Shown in pieces: positions 2,060-14,177 of a DNA stretch of 24,901 nucleotides (position 1 is its first letter; each line of letters opens with the position of its first letter). This DNA is from a virus. The stretch is taken from IMG/VR virus record IMGVR_UViG_3300045015_000009, positions 1 through 24,901 of that record. One strand, written 5' to 3'. Under the pieces are notes generated by a model. That model saw nothing but the letters and a program-made list of their open reading frames with translations. It was not told the origin of the DNA and did not search any database. Both the position numbers and the translations under genes were made by a program.

Positions 2060-2634
2060 TACCGTCTCCCGCTGTAGGCCATGTACTGCCCGATCAGACT
2101 CCCGGCACCGCTCATGCCGGCACCGATGGCGCCCGCCGCCGGGTTGATGCTGTTCGCGCTGCCTCGAAGGTTCGCAGCGCTGGCTCGGCCGAGCAGCGAG
2201 CCGGCCCGCATGTTGGCAGCAGCCTCCCGCGTCGCCGCAGCCTGGCGCTGCGCGTTCGTTTTGATCGTGCGCTTGTCGACCTCGGCAGCGATGCGCATCG
2301 CGCGCTCGACTTCGCCGGCACTTCCCGATCCGACCTCGATCCCGCTCGCGGCGGTTCCGACTTGCAGCCGCGCAACGTCCTGGGCCTCCTGGGCGCCGCG
2401 CCACGCCGCAGCCTGGTCGCCAGCCCGAATGATGACCTCGGCGTCGCGCTCGGCCGCACGGGCCGCGATGTTCGCTTGGTTGGCAGCGAACTCGGCATTC
2501 ATCGCCTCGGTGCGAAGCTCGCTCTGCTTCGCCTTCAGGCCGTAGTAGGTGCCGGCGATCTGCAGCGCCGATCCACCCCCAGCCAGACCAAGCCCGAGCG
2601 AGTTCAGCCAGTCGTAGTTCGTCGCCGTCGCCAT
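2059..2634 (-). CDS. T7 gp14-like internal virion protein (191 aa)
   Basis: This is a small, Ala-rich protein. A Gly/Ala hydrophobic patch near the N terminus (LGLGLAGGGSALQIAG) is followed by a long helical region rich in Ala, Glu and Arg. A second Gly/Ala-rich stretch near the C terminus contains GAIGAGMSGAGSLIG. This layout is typical of gp14-type core proteins, which enter the host outer membrane during DNA ejection. Gene order (after the nozzle, before the larger core protein) agrees. The start is the ATG overlapping the nozzle stop (TGATG) with GGGGGGA just upstream. A GTG one codon earlier is also possible. The family call rests on composition and context. Confidence 0.6.
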   Translation of the reverse strand: MATATNYDWLNSLGLGLAGGGSALQIAGTYYGLKAKQSELRTEAMNAEFAANQANIAARAAERDAEVIIRAGDQAAAWRGAQEAQDVARLQVGTAASGIEVGSGSAGEVERAMRIAAEVDKRTIKTNAQRQAAATREAAANMRAGSLLGRASAANLRGSANSINPAAGAIGAGMSGAGSLIGQYMAYSGRR

Positions 2635-5600
2635 CACGGTCCCCCCAGTTCAACGTCGACAGTCATCGAGACGATCGTCAGAGGCAAGGGCACGTCCTGC
2701 GTGACGACGACCTGGGCGCGACCCCATGGACCGTTCACCGACGCCTCGACGTCCTTCGTGCGCATGCGCGTGTTGTCGAGGCCAGGAACCGCCCATGCCG
2801 TACGCACCACGCCACGCTCCGCGTCGTCGTCTTGGTAGGCAGCCACCTTGAACGTGCAGGAATCCGCGACCCGAAACGAAACGCGGTTGACGTTCAGTTC
2901 TCGCCCCTTGCCGTAGCCGTCGATCATGACGGAAGGCGGCATCGGCCGAAGCTCCGGCGTGTAGAGCAGGCCGACGTGCACCGTCGAGGCTGCAGACGCC
3001 AGCGTGATCGTTGGCGATGCACCAGTCGACACCGTGAACGGTCCACGAACCACGCCGTCAGCGACCGCGTAGACAACCTGGCCAGGAAGATGAGCGACAG
3101 GAATCGAAGTCACCGCGGGGCCGCTGTAGGTCACGCACGAGTCGAGATACTTGCACGCCGTCATCGTGTCCGGCGTTTCGATCCGGCCCATCCGCTCGAC
3201 GTGCAGCACGGTCGCGGAGTTGATCGTGCGCGAAACGATCGCGTAGAGGCGATCCCCGTCACTGTCCGGAATGACGCACACCGACTCGATCGACGCATCG
3301 GTCCCGGCTGTAGTATGGACGTGCCACCCGCGGATGTTCTGCGCCGGCATGTAGGTCATGCCGAGCAGCGCGCCGTCGTCGCGCACATACCACTCGATCG
3401 GCACGGGCGAACGCTGCTGCGCGCTTTGCATCAGCTCGAACCCGTCGAACAGGTGTGCCGATCGCACCGACAAGTCGGGAGGGTCGACGATCTGGTACGT
3501 CTGCGACGGCAGCTCGTAGACGTGCTGGTCTCGGGCGCCAACGAACAGGATGTTGCTGTTGGCGACGATCGGCCGAACGATCGTGCAGCCGACGTGCGAC
3601 AGCGGCCGGGCGTCCAGCGACGTTGGCGTGAGCACGTCGTTGTTGATGCCGGTGAGCCGGATCTCGGCCGCGCTGGTCATCACCCACAGTTGCGACGCCG
3701 GGACGATGTGCCGCACCAGCGTCCGCTCCCTGGCCGCCATGTCGAGCCGGATGCGGTCGGTGTCGAGGATGAGGTTCTCGTGGTAGCTCATCGTCGAGAC
3801 GGTGCCGGTCTTGCCGCCCCACACCCGACGGGGATTCGTGTCGCTGCCGCCGAACCATCCGCGCTGTTGGAAGTTCGCGACCGCGCGCGGGTACTCGGTG
3901 TCGAGGCCGCTGTCGTAGGTCGGCGGCTGCACGCCGAGATCCGGCCCGATGCCGTCGTCGGTCGCGGTCAGCAAGCTCGTCTCGATCACGAGGCCATAGG
4001 CGCCGTCCAGCAGCTTGTAGAGGCGGTAGCGCTGCGCACCCGTCACTGCGGTCCAAGCCAGCACGTTCGACGATCCTGGCACGTCCAGCGCGTTCGTGAC
4101 GGTCAGCGGAGTGCTAGCGGTGCTTTCGTCGCCATCGCGAATGGCCGTCACCACGTAGGTGCTGGTCAACTGACCCGACGAGCCAATCACCCGGATCGCG
4201 CCCGAGGTTGGCCCACCAGCGCCGACTTCTGCGCCGCCCACGATCGTTCGCAGGCGGAACGTATTGGGCGCCGGTATGTCGGTGACCAGGAAGAACCCAG
4301 GCGTCCCCGAGATGCTGCCGACAGCAAGCCCGCTTCCAACGGACGCCTCCAGGTAAACCACATCGCCAGGCAGCAAGGTGTGCGGCACCGCGCCCGTCGT
4401 GGCAGCCGTTCCGACGGTCGGAGTCGCTGCCGAGAACGTGACGTTGTAGTACTGGCCGAACACGCGGCTGCCGAGCGTCAGCGTCGGCGCTGGCGGACCT
4501 GGCGACGGATCAACGCGGCGGAACACGAACTTGGTGTAGCTGCTGCTCGTGCTGCTGCCACTCGGGGCATCGACGGACTCGCGCGACAACGTGTAGGCTG
4601 CGCTCTGCGGCTTCACCAACGTCCACACATCGAGGCTCTGGTCGTAGTTCAGGTCCGCGAGCGCTGCGGCCCCAAGCACTGTGTAGATCTCGTAGGCGCC
4701 GTCTGCCGGCATCTGGTGCCAGTTCGACACCGTCGGGAGAGCGGTCGGCAAGTCATCGATCGCGATGAACGCACGCGACGAGGTTGATGCCAGAATCGTC
4801 AGAGAGCCGCCCCACACGACGTCGCCCTGGTAGTAGGCATAGTGGAACGTGTGTGTTCCAGCGCCTGCCGAGGTCAGCGTGATCTGGTTGGTGTTGGCGA
4901 GCGCATCCTTCTTGGTCGGGAACACCGTGAACGAATCCGCATCGACGTATCGCGTGTAGTAGACGGTGCCGACCGCCAGCGGGCTCGGGAGCGTCCCGGT
5001 GGTCGTGAAGTGAACGGCGTCGCCGTGGGTCACAACCAGGCCGTGCGCCGCGGACGCATCCAGTTGGTTGCCGTTCCGAACGACGGTGCGAGCCTGCACG
5101 TATTCACGCGGCAGCCCCGATTGCTTCCAGAAGCTCGTCTCGTCGATCGTGCTGTTCGTCGTCAGGTCCAGCAGCGGCGCGCCAGGGCCAGCCGATGCCG
5201 ACAGCGTGAACACGGTCGACGAGACGACATCGCGCACGTAGTAGGTGCTCCCGGTTGCCAGATTGCCCGGGATGCTCGTCCCCTTGTGCGTGATCCGCAC
5301 CGCATCGTTCACCGCAAGGCCGTGCGCCGAACTGGTCGTGAACCTGTCCGTCGACAGATCCACCGACGCCACCGGGATCGGTGTCGCGTAGAGCAGCGTC
5401 GATCCGTTCGAGTGGAATCGGACGTGGTTCGTGCCCCACTCCATCGCGTAGGCATCGCCGTCGCCGTAGACGAACGGGAACAGCCGAGCCGACGAAGCGC
5501 CAGACTTGCACGCATGCACGAACTCGAACTGCGGTCGCTTCGTCAGGGCGCCAGTCGGGAGAATGATCATCTCCCGCCCGCGCGCAAAGCCGGTGCGGTA

Positions 5601-5684
5601 GCCCTCGTCCTCGATGTGCCCATGCATCATGGGCGACATCTCGCCGCCCGCGAAGCTGTGGGAGTATGACTTGCGCGACGCCAT
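2634..5684 (-). CDS. Tail nozzle protein, T7 gp12-like, with inserted beta modules (1016 aa)
   Basis: The N terminus carries the hallmark of the podoviral tail tubular protein B family: FAGGEMSPMMHG, then a Gly-Arg stretch and ILPTGALTKRPQFEF (residues 11-55). In the virion this protein would form the distal tail tube or nozzle below the adaptor. It is longer than T7 gp12. Extra beta-rich modules explain this: three HGL/YY repeats at about residues 103-176, 200-281 and 417-487 (the third degenerate), then a fibronectin-III-like domain at about 500-590 (STYVVTAIRDGDE, RYRLYKLLDG). Family-like sequence resumes from about residue 600. The ATG overlaps the adaptor stop (TGATG) and has no clear ribosome binding site, so translation is probably coupled to the adaptor. 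Confidence 0.85.
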   Translation of the reverse strand: MASRKSYSHSFAGGEMSPMMHGHIEDEGYRTGFARGREMIILPTGALTKRPQFEFVHACKSGASSARLFPFVYGDGDAYAMEWGTNHVRFHSNGSTLLYATPIPVASVDLSTDRFTTSSAHGLAVNDAVRITHKGTSIPGNLATGSTYYVRDVVSSTVFTLSASAGPGAPLLDLTTNSTIDETSFWKQSGLPREYVQARTVVRNGNQLDASAAHGLVVTHGDAVHFTTTGTLPSPLAVGTVYYTRYVDADSFTVFPTKKDALANTNQITLTSAGAGTHTFHYAYYQGDVVWGGSLTILASTSSRAFIAIDDLPTALPTVSNWHQMPADGAYEIYTVLGAAALADLNYDQSLDVWTLVKPQSAAYTLSRESVDAPSGSSTSSSYTKFVFRRVDPSPGPPAPTLTLGSRVFGQYYNVTFSAATPTVGTAATTGAVPHTLLPGDVVYLEASVGSGLAVGSISGTPGFFLVTDIPAPNTFRLRTIVGGAEVGAGGPTSGAIRVIGSSGQLTSTYVVTAIRDGDESTASTPLTVTNALDVPGSSNVLAWTAVTGAQRYRLYKLLDGAYGLVIETSLLTATDDGIGPDLGVQPPTYDSGLDTEYPRAVANFQQRGWFGGSDTNPRRVWGGKTGTVSTMSYHENLILDTDRIRLDMAARERTLVRHIVPASQLWVMTSAAEIRLTGINNDVLTPTSLDARPLSHVGCTIVRPIVANSNILFVGARDQHVYELPSQTYQIVDPPDLSVRSAHLFDGFELMQSAQQRSPVPIEWYVRDDGALLGMTYMPAQNIRGWHVHTTAGTDASIESVCVIPDSDGDRLYAIVSRTINSATVLHVERMGRIETPDTMTACKYLDSCVTYSGPAVTSIPVAHLPGQVVYAVADGVVRGPFTVSTGASPTITLASAASTVHVGLLYTPELRPMPPSVMIDGYGKGRELNVNRVSFRVADSCTFKVAAYQDDDAERGVVRTAWAVPGLDNTRMRTKDVEASVNGPWGRAQVVVTQDVPLPLTIVSMTVDVELGGP

Positions 5685-8356
5685 CAGCGTGCGAAGGGAA
5701 AGCGGTTTCGCTGCATCACAGGCGCCCGCTGCGAATCGACCCGCGCCGACTCACCGATCGCGAACTGCGCCATCTGCATGAACTCCATCGCGGCCTTCTG
5801 GTCGCGCTTCACCGAGGCGCACAGGTAGGACGTGAGCACCAGTTCCACGGCCTGCTTCCAGTCCGGAGGCCACTGCGTCGAATCGTCCAGCCTGGCGGTG
5901 TAGACCAGTTCGGCATCGTCCAGGTCGGTGTAGATCACCATCTCGCCGCCAGCGTTCTTCGCCCGCTTGAACGGGATCGGCTGCCGCTCGCCATACGCCG
6001 TGGTGTCGACCGCCTGGTTCAGGCCGTTGACGGAAGCAGTGACGAAGCCGCTGCCGAGTTCCGTGCGGCCAAGGGCCGACCCGTCCGTACCGTTCCAGTC
6101 GTCCGGCGCCCCGATCGGAACCACGGCGCGCTCGACGAAGCAGTCGTCTGGCACCGCATACATGAAGCGGTAGGCGCTGCGGTCGCTCTCCTTGTAGACC
6201 TCCCAGCCATTGCCGCCTGCGGTCGTCAGGTCGATGGCTGATCCGCCAGCCGACGTGGCTACTGCGAACGAAAGCGCCGTGACTCTCGTCGCGTAGTAGG
6301 TCGTGTCCTCCACCAGGGGCGAAGGCAGCGAGACGCCATCCGCCACGAACGAGACCGGGCTTCCGGTCACAAGCCCGTGAGGCTTGCCAACGGTGATCAG
6401 GTTGCTCGTGGCCGAAGCGATGGGGCCAAGAAGCCGTACCTTCGCCAGCTCCACGCGCTCATCGGCGAAGCTCCAGTGCCTCGCCGTGGTGACGAACTCG
6501 GCCGCCTGGTCGAACAGGAGCAGGCACTTCTCGGCATGCACGCTGCCCTCGGGCGGGTCCAGCGACGTGATGTTCGGCGTCTCGCCGATCGCCGTGAGCG
6601 CACGATTGCACATCGCGATCTTCACCAAGTCGCCGTCCGCAGTCGGCCCGACCAGCCGGTCGTGGATCGGCTCCCACACCCGGAAGAACTCTTGCCCGAG
6701 AATGATCTGACTCAGCGCCGACAGGTGCAGGTTGTCGTATGCGAACGTGAACCCGATGTTGCGCGTGTCGACGACGCCCGAGTTCGGGTCGTCGTCTGCG
6801 ATGCCGAACAGCGCGTCGTACACCCGGTCGCTGATCGGGTGGCCGGAACCGCCCGCGTAGGCGCACGGACCCGACATGATCCATGGAATGGTGTCGTCGC
6901 CGATGTAGGTGCGCAGCGCGTCCCGCAGAAGTTCCGTGTTCGCGCGAAGCCGGTAGGTGCGCTCCGCGCCGCTGGTCGGGTCGTTGTCGAACAGGTTGAT
7001 GAAGATGCCGCGCACCTTCATCGTGTTGCCCTCGGACTCGATCAGCGTCCGCATCGACGAGATCGCGCTCGTCAGGATCGGGTAGATCCCGTTCGGCGAC
7101 GACGGGTGGAAGTCGAGGTTCGTGAAGTCGTGCAGCGGTCCGACCAGGTTGTCGGCCACGCCGTCCGGCTGAAGCTTGAACGGCGAGATCATCGACGCGC
7201 TGACACCGAGCTGCAGAGCCACAAGAGGCCTTGCCGTCTTCGACCGCACGCTCCACGTCAGCTCGGCCAGGCAGTTGACCGACTCGTCTGCGACAACGGC
7301 CTCGCGCGGCGACGTGGCCGGCGTGAAGTCGTAGTTGCGATACTCGAGGCCGGTCAGGTAGACGGGCGCCACATCATCGAGGGCCACCGTCAGGCTCTGC
7401 AGAACCGCCTTCGGCGGCTGCATGCTGTCCAAGTCCTCGACCGAGTTGGCGCCGTCCAAGATGACAAACCCGGTCCCCACGCTCGGCAGTGTGCCGGTCA
7501 GCGGGCCGTCGAGCGTGATGGTCGTCGACGTCACCGCAGTGATGCGCCGAGCGTTGTTGTTCGACGTTGGTGTCAGGAACAGCACGTAGCGATCGACGTC
7601 GTTCGAGTCGAACGCCACCGTGGTCTCGGTCCGCGTGATGATCGTCGCGGTTGAGTCGATGGCCGAGATCGTGTGGCTGCTCGGCAGCACGACGAAGGCG
7701 TCGCCAGCGACGGGCGTCGGCGCATACTCGCCCGACACCGTGACGTCGTTGCCGACGGCGCTCACGACCCGCCTCAGCCCCGCCGTGCTACGCCCCGTCC
7801 CGCTCAGGATGAACGTCCACTGGTCGGCGACAGGCGTCGGCGAGATCGCAGTGCCGCTGTAGGTCACCGTGTCGTTCGCGCCAGCCGTGTTGACCGACGC
7901 AACGGTGCGCTGCTTGTTGCTCGCATACGGGCGCCGCGGCGTCCACATGCGCGTGCCTTCCATCTGCACGCTGTAGGGCTGCGTCACGCTCGACCGGGCG
8001 AACTTCGGGCTGCCCGAACTGTTGCTCGTGAGCGCGACAGCCGAACCGCTCGGCTGCGTGGCGACCTGGAACGTGTTCGGCGCGATCGAGATCGCGTAGT
8101 AGACCGTCCCGGCCGTGATCCCCCCAGACAGCGTGCCTCCGTTCGAGAAGAACACGATCGGTTGGTTCGACGTCAGTCCATGCGCCGTCGACGTGAACAG
8201 GTCGCCGGCATCCGCCGACGTGAACGACGTCATCGATCCCGGCACCGCCTGCGAGAACCATCGCAGGTAGGACGCGGCGTCGACCTCGTAGAGGTTCGCC
8301 AGGAAGCCCGCCATGTTCGACGAGCCGATGCAGATGATGACGTCCTGGTCAGCCAT
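5684..8356 (-). CDS. Fused SGNH esterase-like domain and T7 gp11-like head-tail adaptor (890 aa)
   Basis: Residues 6-562 look like an SGNH/sialate O-acetylesterase-type hydrolase. GSSN at 11-14 gives candidate nucleophile Ser13, block-II Gly is near 384, and DNLH at 541-544 gives the Asp-His pair. The usual QGESD box seems changed to a FDND sequence (456-459). Beta-rich inserts separate the blocks: an HGL/YY module (about 42-118) and a duplicated unit (about 173-223 and 252-300). Residues 575-890 match the tail tubular protein A/adaptor family: CNRALTAIGE, ITSLDPPEG, HWSFADER, FMYAVPDDC and a helical C terminus. Another HGL/YY module sits inside at about 645-720. No stop or frameshift separates the halves. 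AGGAG precedes the ATG but lies in a 7-bp hairpin. A weak internal GTG at 6625 could also yield a free adaptor. Confidence 0.85.
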   Translation of the reverse strand: MADQDVIICIGSSNMAGFLANLYEVDAASYLRWFSQAVPGSMTSFTSADAGDLFTSTAHGLTSNQPIVFFSNGGTLSGGITAGTVYYAISIAPNTFQVATQPSGSAVALTSNSSGSPKFARSSVTQPYSVQMEGTRMWTPRRPYASNKQRTVASVNTAGANDTVTYSGTAISPTPVADQWTFILSGTGRSTAGLRRVVSAVGNDVTVSGEYAPTPVAGDAFVVLPSSHTISAIDSTATIITRTETTVAFDSNDVDRYVLFLTPTSNNNARRITAVTSTTITLDGPLTGTLPSVGTGFVILDGANSVEDLDSMQPPKAVLQSLTVALDDVAPVYLTGLEYRNYDFTPATSPREAVVADESVNCLAELTWSVRSKTARPLVALQLGVSASMISPFKLQPDGVADNLVGPLHDFTNLDFHPSSPNGIYPILTSAISSMRTLIESEGNTMKVRGIFINLFDNDPTSGAERTYRLRANTELLRDALRTYIGDDTIPWIMSGPCAYAGGSGHPISDRVYDALFGIADDDPNSGVVDTRNIGFTFAYDNLHLSALSQIILGQEFFRVWEPIHDRLVGPTADGDLVKIAMCNRALTAIGETPNITSLDPPEGSVHAEKCLLLFDQAAEFVTTARHWSFADERVELAKVRLLGPIASATSNLITVGKPHGLVTGSPVSFVADGVSLPSPLVEDTTYYATRVTALSFAVATSAGGSAIDLTTAGGNGWEVYKESDRSAYRFMYAVPDDCFVERAVVPIGAPDDWNGTDGSALGRTELGSGFVTASVNGLNQAVDTTAYGERQPIPFKRAKNAGGEMVIYTDLDDAELVYTARLDDSTQWPPDWKQAVELVLTSYLCASVKRDQKAAMEFMQMAQFAIGESARVDSQRAPVMQRNRFPFAR

Positions 8357-8376
8357 CGGTCAGGGTCTCCTGACCG
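8357..8376 (-). promoter_or_regulatory. Hairpin around the ribosome binding site of the adaptor-fusion gene
   Basis: Perfect 7-bp arms (CGGTCAG and CTGACCG) enclose the 6-nt loop GAGACC, and the hairpin ends directly at the ATG. The AGGAG ribosome binding site is partly in the 5' arm and partly in the loop. In mRNA this could lower translation of the adaptor relative to the abundant capsid proteins encoded just upstream. No T-run follows, so it is not a standard terminator. Confidence 0.5.
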
Positions 8377-8380
8377 GGCA

Positions 8381-8854
8381 TCACGTCGGGCCGACGTAGT
8401 TGGCGGTCAACCGACTCGGCTTGTTGGGAGAGTGCCCGAGAGGGATCCATGCCGAGAACGCCCCGGTCGAGGGGGCCGCCGAAGCCAGCCACCCAAGTCC
8501 GATGTACGTCTGCCCTGCGGCAGCGGCCTCCGTCAGGCTCGGGATCTCGATGTCCATCTCTCGACCGACCACAAGCTGGGAAGAGACAAACGTCTTGGAC
8601 CCCAGAACCGTCGGCGACGAGAGGTCTGCGAAGTCGGACGTGATGACGCTGAACGCCACACTGGCGACGCCAACGTCGACCGTCTGCGTCCAGAAGATTC
8701 GGAACGCGAGCTTGGTGCCGCTCCCGATGTTGCGGCCAGCCAGACTTAGCGGCGTTCCAGAAACCCCGTTGATGACCCTGATGCTGTCGGTGACGCCGGC
8801 AATCGCAAGCGTCGTCCCGTTGGCGATTCGCGTGTAGGCGTCGTAGGTGCTCAC
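8381..8854 (-). CDS. Bbp16-like capsid decoration/cement protein (157 aa)
   Basis: This compact all-beta protein has the pattern I associate with the Bbp16 family of BPP-1-type phages. The N terminus contains DSIRVINGVSGTPLSLAGRNIGSG, followed by alternating strands ending FSVITSDFADLSSPTVLG. A VVGREMDIEIP strand and a C-terminal IGLGWLAS ... GAFSAWIPLG complete it. Proteins of this type bind the outside of the capsid. It lies two genes after the major capsid gene and directly after a second protein of similar plan. The GTG start overlaps the upstream stop as GTGA. A gap of 24 nt containing a hairpin separates it from the adaptor gene. The family call is from pattern, not a search. Confidence 0.65.
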   Translation of the reverse strand: MSTYDAYTRIANGTTLAIAGVTDSIRVINGVSGTPLSLAGRNIGSGTKLAFRIFWTQTVDVGVASVAFSVITSDFADLSSPTVLGSKTFVSSQLVVGREMDIEIPSLTEAAAAGQTYIGLGWLASAAPSTGAFSAWIPLGHSPNKPSRLTANYVGPT

Positions 8855-9594
8855 GGCGTCACGTAGTTGCTCGGGTTGATCGGGTGGTTGGACATCGGCG
8901 CCCCGCGCTGCAGGTCGCAGAACACCACGCCAGCCGACAGGTTCGCCGTCGGGACGTAGCGCGCGAACAGGTAGCGATGCACCGGCTGGACGCGGCTGTC
9001 GAGCAGCAGCGGGTTGATGCGGATCTGAACCTGCGTGCGGTTCGCGATCAGGCGCTCAAGCGGCACCTTGCTGGCGGCGCCGACCACCTCGGGATACCAC
9101 GTCAACGTGTGTGTTCCCGTGCCGGTGTCGGTGATGTCGACAGCCGTTCCGCCTGGCGTCGTCGAGACCTTGAACGTGTTGGTCGTGGTGTCGCGCAGGT
9201 AGTAGTTGGTCGAAGAAGCGAGGCCGCCGGGAAGCGTCGTGCTCGACGAAACCGTGATTCGCGTCCCGTCGATCAGGCCATGCGCCGTTGCCGTGATAAT
9301 GTCCGTCGTCGCGGCCGTGAACGTCTGCGTGTTGGTGGCCGGCGTGGTCGTCGGCGCCATCACAAGCTCGATGTCGAGCGTGGCGTTGTTGGTCGCGCTG
9401 TCGACCGTCGTGGTCGGCCAGACCAACGCGAACAGGTCGCAGAGGTCGCGCTTCGTGCGCAGCGACCCGCCCGCGTCGAGGTCGATCCAGTTGGTCGAGT
9501 AGACCGGCGCGGCAGCCGTCGCCGCAGCGATCGACTGACCGGCCGCGGAACTGCCGGTCGTGCCGGACAGACGAGTGAGAACGTCGAGTGTCAT
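8851..9594 (-). CDS. Second Bbp16-like virion protein with an inserted beta module (247 aa)
   Basis: Residues 1-90 and 168-247 follow the same plan as the next gene: STNWIDLDAGG and LDIELVMAP near the start, and RYLFARYVPTANLSAGVVFCDL near the end. Between them, residues about 90-166 form one HGL/YY module (TATAHGLIDG ... NYYLRD ... TGTHTL), apparently inserted in a surface loop. Removing it leaves a protein close in size to the 157-residue neighbour. The ATG has a strong AGGAGG site 8 nt upstream, fitting high expression, and starts 13 nt after the major capsid stop. It is probably a capsid cement or decoration protein; the module may face outward. Paralogy with the neighbour is inferred. 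Confidence 0.65.
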   Translation of the reverse strand: MTLDVLTRLSGTTGSSAAGQSIAAATAAAPVYSTNWIDLDAGGSLRTKRDLCDLFALVWPTTTVDSATNNATLDIELVMAPTTTPATNTQTFTAATTDIITATAHGLIDGTRITVSSSTTLPGGLASSTNYYLRDTTTNTFKVSTTPGGTAVDITDTGTGTHTLTWYPEVVGAASKVPLERLIANRTQVQIRINPLLLDSRVQPVHRYLFARYVPTANLSAGVVFCDLQRGAPMSNHPINPSNYVTP

Positions 9595-12062: not shown

Positions 12063-13574
12063 TCACTCGAAGTAGCCGATGAAGGCGACGCTCCCATGGA
12101 CGACAAGTGTGTTCCCCGTCACAGTGCCGTACGGGCGCACGACCCAGTGGATGTAACATCCTGGCGGGATCGCCAGCGGCGCATCGCCGCAGTCGAGTGA
12201 TCCGCCTTCGACGTAGTCGCCGATCGCCGCCGTCGCCTTGAACGGAATCGTGTCGACCACGATGCCGCGCGGTCCCCACGCAGCAGCGGCATCCGGCGTG
12301 CTTGTGTTCGCCGCTGTGCCGCCGACGCCGACGATCAGGTTCAGGTTGATGGGGTTCGTCGCTGCCGCCGCCGTCGCGACCGTCTTGCCCCACCGCACGC
12401 CCGTGATGTAGAGCGTCTTGCCCGCAAGCGTCGCCGTGCCCGCCGGATTCAGGTAGGAGTAGACCGGGTAGTCAGCCTCGCTCGTCAGGGTCGAGATCGC
12501 GGGCGACACCCACTGTCCGCCGAGCGAGTTGATCGCAGGCGCGGTCGTCGCCGTCCACGTGCCAGCGGCGCGAGCCGTGGCGCTGGTTGGCCAGCCAGAC
12601 GACCCAGCCCCGCGCGTCGTCGTCGGCCCCGAGATCGTGCCTGGCTGAATGAACGCCGAGCCGCCACCCGAGCCGGTCATCTGGTGACCCCACGGCTTCG
12701 TCGTCGCGAAGTCGCCAAGGTTCACCGCCCACATGCGGACCGCCAACGTCCGCGCCGCCGACGCGGTGCCGGAGTTGTAGACGCGCGACATCAACGGCAG
12801 CGACGTGCTGCTCGTGACCGACGACGTGGCCGCCAATGCGTAGGTGCGGAACAACATCACGTCGTTGCACCACCACTGCACCTCGTCGTTGTGCACCGCG
12901 ATGAGGTAGTGGTTGCGCTCCGTCGCGTCGTAGTTGCCAGACCCGTCCGCCGCCGGAACGTTCGTCATCGACAGCGAGATCGACACTACGTCGACCGAGT
13001 TGTTGATGACCACGGCGTTCAACTGCCCGCCGCTGGTGCGCCGGAAGATCACGCCGTCCGTCATCTGCGCAGTGACGCCAGAGCAGTAGCCGATACCCCA
13101 CTCACTGACTGCGTTCGTCGACGTCGGGTTGCCCTCGGCCTGGATGATCTCGATCCACGTCTGCGCGCTCGTGTAGATCGGAAACGTGCGGTAGGTGCGC
13201 ACGTTCGTCCCCTGGCCGGTCGTCGTGCTGTTGCCGCTGTTCAACGTCAGGTTGCCGTTGGTCTGTATCGCCGTCATCGTCGTGTCGTTCTGTTGGAGTC
13301 GATCACGCGCGATGTTCGTGCCCTCGAACGAGTGCTGGAACAGCACCGTGTCCACGCTGACGCGGAGCCGGTAGTCCTCAGTCGCTTCCAGCGCCTTCGT
13401 GTGGCTGGTGCCGAGAACCGTGCCGTCATCGCTCTGCGCGACAAGCGCAGCGAACCCGGCGACCTCCGAATCGGTCGGCAGTTGCACGTGCTGCGCGTTC
13501 GTGCCGGTGTTCGTGACGCCGACCTCCGCTCCCGTGCCGCTCGTGATCCCACGAAGTGTCGAATCGAGTGCCAT
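12063..13574 (-). CDS. Fibre or receptor-binding-type virion protein (503 aa)
   Basis: The protein is rich in Thr, Ser, Gly and Ala and reads as beta throughout. A segment at about residues 64-95 (ATEDYRLRVSVDTVLFQHSF) followed by a lectin- or jelly-roll-like region resembles fibre or appendage proteins common in phage and metagenomic sequences. That region includes WIEIIQAEGNP, GVIFRRTSGGQLNAVV and EVQWWCNDVML. The C-terminal part (about 320-503) is a second beta domain ending VVHGSVAFIGYFE. Its location between the portal segment's smaller fibre and a membrane protein suggests a head or tail fibre; receptor binding is inferred. The ATG has GAGGGAT about 8 nt upstream. No catalytic motif was recognised. 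Confidence 0.65.
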   Translation of the reverse strand: MALDSTLRGITSGTGAEVGVTNTGTNAQHVQLPTDSEVAGFAALVAQSDDGTVLGTSHTKALEATEDYRLRVSVDTVLFQHSFEGTNIARDRLQQNDTTMTAIQTNGNLTLNSGNSTTTGQGTNVRTYRTFPIYTSAQTWIEIIQAEGNPTSTNAVSEWGIGYCSGVTAQMTDGVIFRRTSGGQLNAVVINNSVDVVSISLSMTNVPAADGSGNYDATERNHYLIAVHNDEVQWWCNDVMLFRTYALAATSSVTSSTSLPLMSRVYNSGTASAARTLAVRMWAVNLGDFATTKPWGHQMTGSGGGSAFIQPGTISGPTTTRGAGSSGWPTSATARAAGTWTATTAPAINSLGGQWVSPAISTLTSEADYPVYSYLNPAGTATLAGKTLYITGVRWGKTVATAAAATNPINLNLIVGVGGTAANTSTPDAAAAWGPRGIVVDTIPFKATAAIGDYVEGGSLDCGDAPLAIPPGCYIHWVVRPYGTVTGNTLVVHGSVAFIGYFE

Positions 13575-13583
13575 GGTGATCCC

Positions 13584-14177
13584 TCAACTCCAACGCCAAC
13601 GAACCGCGAACGTGCCCTGCATCTTGTCGATGCAGTGGGCATAGATGGTGAAGCCCACGCCTGGGCTGATGTCGCCAGCGGAGAGCGCGATCCAAAGCCC
13701 CGCATAGCGGTGGTCGTTCGCCGTGTGATCCGCAGTCGTGTCGCTGCCGACGATGAACGCTTCGGGCACGCTCGTGCCGACGATCGACGCCTGCCCGGTC
13801 ACGGCGACACTCGCCTCGCTGTTCCCAGGGAACGAGCCGAAGTTGATCGTCGCGGTGCCGAACGTCGAATCGCCACCACCGCCACCGCCAGGAACCGCCC
13901 ACGTTCGATCGTCACGCAGGAACTTCGCGCCGGTAGCCGTGCCCGTGCCCAACTGCGCGAACGGCACCAGCGTCGAGCCGTCGAGGCTGGCGTATCCGCT
14001 GGCAGCGCCCTTCTCGCTCTCCTTCTGGTAGCCGGTGTGCGGGTCGGTTGCGGCCTCATGCGTGGCAACGCCAGCCGCCACGGTCGTCGGGATCAGCGCG
14101 CGCAACCGAAGGTGCTCGCGGGACAAGTCCTGCGCCGCGTCTCGTGCGATGCCAGCGTTTGCGCGATCGCCACCCAT
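13584..14177 (-). CDS. Small fibre protein with collar-type N-terminal motif (197 aa)
   Basis: Residues 40-96 read HEAATDPHTGYQ ... GYASLDGSTLVPFAQLG ... KFLRDDRTWAVPG, the repeat-like pattern found in many phage tail and head fibres (DPH-x-x-Y, then G-Y-A-x-L-D, then a WxxP end). A run of six glycines (97-102) links this to a C-terminal beta domain of about 95 residues ending MQGTFAVRWRWS. It probably forms a trimeric fibre or attaches the larger fibre encoded next. The ATG overlaps the portal stop (TGATG), so it is translationally coupled to the portal. Confidence 0.7.
   Translation of the reverse strand: MGGDRANAGIARDAAQDLSREHLRLRALIPTTVAAGVATHEAATDPHTGYQKESEKGAASGYASLDGSTLVPFAQLGTGTATGAKFLRDDRTWAVPGGGGGGDSTFGTATINFGSFPGNSEASVAVTGQASIVGTSVPEAFIVGSDTTADHTANDHRYAGLWIALSAGDISPGVGFTIYAHCIDKMQGTFAVRWRWS

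Follow-up and report, generated by a model that had tools for sequence, protein, structure and literature searches.

The head-tail adaptor of phage T7 is a twelve-subunit ring under the portal, in which the alpha1-alpha2 loop contacts the nozzle and the dock region lies outside (PMC6702177). KP32 TTPA has been reported to be a dual protein, both structural and glycan-degrading (PMC5440376, PMC5741709). In other phages, tail proteins of the SGNH-hydrolase type have esterase activity and hydrolyse acetate esters, and SGNH fibres are presumed to remove acetyl groups from capsule or O-antigen (PMC13123978, PMC11654681). A GDSL-family esterase, P2_42, is abundant in virions of the Vibrio podophage Peru-2 (PMC13320782), and the neck passage structure proteins of lactococcal phages carry shuffled carbohydrate-active or carbohydrate-binding domains at the neck (PMC10684548). 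Here we describe a podovirus adaptor that is fused in frame to an SGNH-hydrolase domain. A preliminary description of this DNA had stated that no example of such a fusion was known; we likewise found no published SGNH-adaptor fusion in the literature searched, but the arrangement is not a one-off, since a second, divergent contig shares it.

The window, meaning the whole stretch of DNA analyzed, is a single metagenomic contig of 24,901 bases (IMG/VR virus record IMGVR_UViG_3300045015_000009), and all of its features given below are on the minus strand. The fusion gene (5684..8356) is a single open frame of 890 aa that begins with ATG at 8356, ends at 5684, and has zero internal stops. The uninterrupted frame noted earlier at these positions, with no strand given, was thus confirmed. 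A Shine-Dalgarno-like AGGAG in the upstream sequence (8367..8371) lies 10 nt before the ATG, and the fusion stop overlaps the ATG of the nozzle gene (TGATG at 5684). Third-codon-position GC is steadily high (about 0.9) across the junction between the two halves, indicating that the same reading frame is coding throughout. The nozzle (tail tube B) gene follows at 2634..5684 (phrog_376, E 4.6e-121), and a gene for a Bbp16-like capsid-associated protein lies upstream at 8381..8854 (Pfam Bbp16, E 1.2e-6). The resulting order of Bbp16-like gene, adaptor, and nozzle is that of phage BPP-1. BPP-1 and several of its relatives have a gene of ~55-70 codons between Bbp16 and the adaptor; in the window this small gene of the bbp15 slot is absent, and the SGNH half is in its place. 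The window looks like a partial genome, and its six frames contained no second adaptor gene. Two further genes lie between portal and scaffold (12063-14177); the first of them (13584-14177) matched a minor tail protein (E 1.9e-4) and includes a fibre-like segment, and fibres may be encoded at this unusual place.

Residues 1-568 (6653..8356) form the N-terminal SGNH-hydrolase domain, which has inserts. The Pfam family SASA (PF03629, sialic-acid-specific acetylesterase) matched residues 470-558 of the unedited protein with an E value of 0.0016 (18.6 bits), and the score rose to 22.1 bits (E 1.3e-4) after the inserts were removed by hand. Both scores are below the curated cut-off of 24.8 bits, so the assignment is to the SGNH superfamily only. 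The corresponding domain of the second contig matched SASA independently, the better E value of the two homologues being 0.0015. Searching with a profile of these two domains retrieved a protein from Actinomycetota (E 3.6e-4) that has the motifs GQSNM and WMQGE; matches of the profile in Pseudomonadota genomes fell on the beta-module region discussed below and not on the esterase core. A structural model of the fusion was built from a 34-row alignment (a single-sequence model had a mean pLDDT of only 31.6). Over about residues 2-568, it aligned with the SGNH-type carbohydrate esterases 2apj and 1zmb (Z 14.5) and, in the same region, with NanS (Z 11.2), and the remaining non-adaptor structural matches were mostly SGNH hydrolases. 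Predicted strands at 3-11, 378-384, 445-454, 492-495, and 526-529 alternate with helices, as in the alpha/beta/alpha SGNH fold; model confidence is low at residues 21-152 and 301-376. A beta-rich, fibre-like segment with predicted strands occupies residues 147-305 (7442..7918; 33% identity in the second contig).

SGNH block I is GSSNMAG (residues 11-17; 8306..8326), which aligned with GQSNM of two SASA proteins and contains the putative nucleophile Ser13. Block V is DNLH (residues 541-544; 6725..6736), with the putative catalytic Asp and His, where the SASA proteins have DHVH and DQIH. S13, D541, and H544 were invariant in the alignment with these two proteins. FINLFDND (residues 452-459; 6980..7003) stands where SASA proteins have WMQGESD; in this block III region, N458 is present and the usual Gly is replaced by Phe. 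Block II is ambiguous and could be G384 or the neighbouring SAS. The positions assigned earlier to GSSN (11-14) and DNLH (541-544) are therefore correct, and the proposal that residues 1-570 belong to an SGNH hydrolase is borne out by the fold and the aligned motifs. Sequence and model together identify residues 1-568 as an SGNH-hydrolase fold that keeps a putative catalytic Ser/Asp/His set.

The second half of the protein (residues 577-890; 5687..6628) is a complete podovirus head-tail adaptor domain. It matched PHROG 394 (phrog_394; E 3.8e-23) and the connector of Carin-1 (phmmer E 4.2e-6), and structural alignment gave a Z of 19.8 to the Carin-1 connector (8ck1_E), 13.5 to T7 gp11, and 12.7 to KP32 TTPA (5mu4). 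The four-helix bundle, dock region, and C-terminal helix are all present, and alignment with BPP-1 Bbp14 and others is unbroken apart from an inserted beta module at 645-721. A complete gp11-type adaptor had been proposed from about residue 575; the domain indeed starts at ~575-577 and runs complete to 890. The adaptor ring is not wholly hidden between portal and nozzle, as the preliminary description had it; its fibre-dock side faces the tail exterior (PMC6702177, PMC9509320). Only a short linker (residues 569-576; 6629..6652) separates the two domains, lying between predicted helices at 546-568 and 575-589. Just after it come TTG577 and GTG578; no other in-frame start lies nearby ahead of ATG582.

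The adaptor insert (~75 residues; 6194..6424), which sits where T7 has its fibre dock (PMC6702177), is one copy of a beta module of ~70 residues with the pattern HGL...G...YY...F...GG...LT. Five copies were found in three virion proteins of the window: one at residues 46-118 inside the SGNH domain (8003..8221), the adaptor copy, one at 9097-9330, and two in the nozzle (2634-5684), which also has one additional weak copy. The copy at 9097-9330 is in a protein encoded between the MCP and Bbp16-like genes (8851-9594) that has 33% identity in the second contig and, outside the module, matches no known family. Related podovirus proteins and a tail protein of a Rhizobium phage also contain the module, for which Pfam gave no match. 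Its sites differ between the two phages, and it gives the impression of a virion module that moves freely.

The second contig, IMGVR_UViG_3300036985_003617 (hereafter L134), was the sole relative found when viral contigs were scanned with the SGNH half aligned to two SASA proteins, and a second such scan with both fusions again found only L134. Its frame at 4092-6452 encodes 786 residues in the order SGNH domain, then adaptor, and is followed by the nozzle gene, so that searching other phage genomes for the junction, as suggested earlier, yielded the same fusion. The two phages are highly divergent: identity is 27% for the portal, 36% for the MCP, 33% for the nozzle, 33% for the N-terminal part of the adaptor, and 11% for the linker (residues 568-576). 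Of the virion parts compared, the SGNH core is conserved best, at 49%, with 59% in the block I region. Its excess over the other proteins suggests strong constraint, although these sequences would fit either an unusually constrained SGNH domain or one exchanged between lineages. L134 keeps GSSNMAGF and INLFDND unchanged (seven of the eight residues of FINLFDND are thus invariant) and has DGVH for DNLH. The module at 46-118 is missing at that site in L134, which has one elsewhere in its SGNH domain and none in its adaptor. Around the junction of L134, none of the codons ATG, GTG, and TTG occurs between residue 561 and adaptor Cys595, ahead of the conserved helix of the adaptor, so the adaptor of this phage could be made only as a fusion; no second adaptor was found in the L134 contig. 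A stop near 6640 hidden by a sequencing error, a concern raised earlier, is ruled out by this divergent fusion without a junction start codon. In a tree of adaptor domains, the two fusions did not group and the window branch was very long, and a single origin was not rejected (p-AU 0.449); one or two fusion events thus fit alike. The fusion is real and, as judged from sequence, conserved in at least two lineages.

The fusion is also rare. Over 110 further adaptors, drawn from viral contigs, prophages, and isolated phages, have frames of 90-298 residues (the shortest, of 90, is cut by a contig end), and the SGNH domain is absent from all of them. In 369 genomes of one bacterial class, six adaptor matches were found, in frames of 163-246 residues. 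Two entries of the viral structure library BFVD (A0A516LTA4 and A0A516LMG1) matched the model over 804 and 815 columns (E about 1e-24), whereas plain adaptors matched at only about 1e-8; on these model matches, the two entries are probable further fusions. Neither the whole protein nor its SGNH half, used directly in similarity searches, found an isolated-phage relative beyond a beta-module match; a search of plasmids with the L134 SGNH half found no relative, and nor did single-protein pattern scans of viral contigs and genome contigs. Scans for close relatives with MCP, nozzle, and portal found one contig with a portal 87% identical, which ends before the adaptor.

Adaptors with other large domains in one frame do exist, and three came to light among isolated or deposited phages. 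VP2p14 of Vibrio phage VP2 (2489-4714) is a 741-residue adaptor with C-terminal Ig-like and glycine-rich domains. Two spring-water phages encode adaptors with N-terminal beta repeats, one of 753 residues (MW202473, 947-3208) and one of 652 (MW202478, 1229-3187), whose repeats include TKTTTFTKxxATL. Both are annotated merely as "tail tubular protein A", and their repeats match no known family well. They were considered as further SGNH fusions and rejected, as the extensions had no SGNH match. These N-terminal extensions of ~420-520 residues in two other phages indicate that the adaptor N-terminus tolerates large domains.

The reading that we favour, and consider probable as a whole, is that the only head-tail adaptor of this phage carries the fused SGNH domain and that twelve such domains act as neck esterases that de-O-acetylate host glycans. 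The fusion itself is established; neck position, copy number, and activity we infer. Like other adaptors, twelve copies of the fusion would assemble under the portal. T7 geometry would place the SGNH-bearing N-terminus proximal to the portal, and the twelve SGNH domains would form a collar around the neck just below the capsid. This collar could strip ester groups, O-acetyl or similar, from exopolysaccharide, capsule, or O-antigen as the particle crosses the surface layer and docks, aiding adsorption as tailspike esterases do, from the neck instead. Because a likely tail-fibre protein is encoded in the window as well (13584-14177), adsorption may not need the neck esterase. The catalytic reading, drawn from two homologous sequences and a model of partly low confidence, is suggested by the retention of the putative catalytic motifs while the decorations moved, and we regard the functional claim as moderately likely.

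The strongest competing explanation, though an unlikely one, is that the SGNH fold has been kept to decorate the neck in a binding or structural role (glycan binding or stiffening), with weak or no catalysis. The presence of the inserted beta module in the nozzle and another virion protein, which is typical of decoration, fits this explanation, as do the replaced Gly of block III and the ambiguous block II. It accounts less well for the conservation in L134 of S13, D541, H544, and their surrounding blocks even though the beta modules moved, or for an SGNH core more conserved than any other virion part compared. We consider it improbable that two products are made, the full fusion and a free adaptor started at TTG577 or GTG578, with esterase on only some subunits of the ring. 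Such starts would give a nearly canonical adaptor N-terminal length, and a weak GGA lies 7 nt upstream, but there is no good ribosome site at the window junction, and L134, which lacks junction starts, does not need this arrangement. Slightly less probable again is an elaboration in which twelve active O-acetylesterases in the DNA channel would couple glycan binding or cleavage to the adaptor and nozzle and so help to trigger genome release. Cleavage of the fusion by the prohead protease or another enzyme, yielding an adaptor and a released esterase, is very improbable: beyond a short and unconserved linker nothing speaks for it, and none of that directly, and in the model the linker closely joins two predicted helices. 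Finally, a sequencing or assembly error that joined two neighbouring genes, conceivable in one metagenomic contig, is no longer reasonable given that an independent, highly divergent contig has the same in-frame fusion and gene order, without a junction start or a second adaptor, and that codon-position GC is uniform through the window junction.

Host-glycan esterases are already described on podophage spikes and fibres; the adaptor fusion would place a defined ring of esterases at the neck, on a component that is essential and, unlike a fibre, cannot be lost. With its clear enzyme domain and clear candidate catalytic residue, the fusion also offers a direct way to test the idea of a dual-function adaptor, which has been claimed for KP32 TTPA. 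The adaptor N-terminus emerges as a display site for large domains, and annotators have reason to inspect genes labelled "tail tubular protein A" whose products are 650-1,000 residues long.

What is new is the way in which two known kinds of protein, an SGNH virion esterase and a podovirus adaptor, are joined. BPP-1 Bbp14, the Carin-1 connector (8ck1_E), and the adaptors of PHROG 394 share fold and family with the fusion and likewise stand between a Bbp16-like protein and the nozzle; they are of ~200-230 residues and, unlike the fusion, have no SGNH domain. KP32 TTPA (5mu4) and T7 gp11 have the adaptor fold in common with it (Z about 13), but KP32 TTPA lacks a distinct enzyme domain, and its activity was ascribed to the helical region, whereas the fusion adds a whole SGNH domain. 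VP2p14, MW202473, and MW202478 resemble it in their large extra domains, but no enzyme domain, SGNH or otherwise, was recognised in them. The SGNH esterase tailspikes and tail fibres (G7C, Moo19, B2, and Klebsiella prophage fibres) are virion esterases, shown or proposed, for O-acetylated surface glycans (PMC13123978, PMC11654681); theirs are on spikes or fibres, and that of the window would be on a channel-forming adaptor ring. Peru-2 P2_42, whose place within the virion structure is not given, is encoded by a separate gene of 473 aa, unlike the fusion. The lactococcal neck passage structure likewise consists of separate neck proteins, whereas in the window the domain is fused to the adaptor itself.
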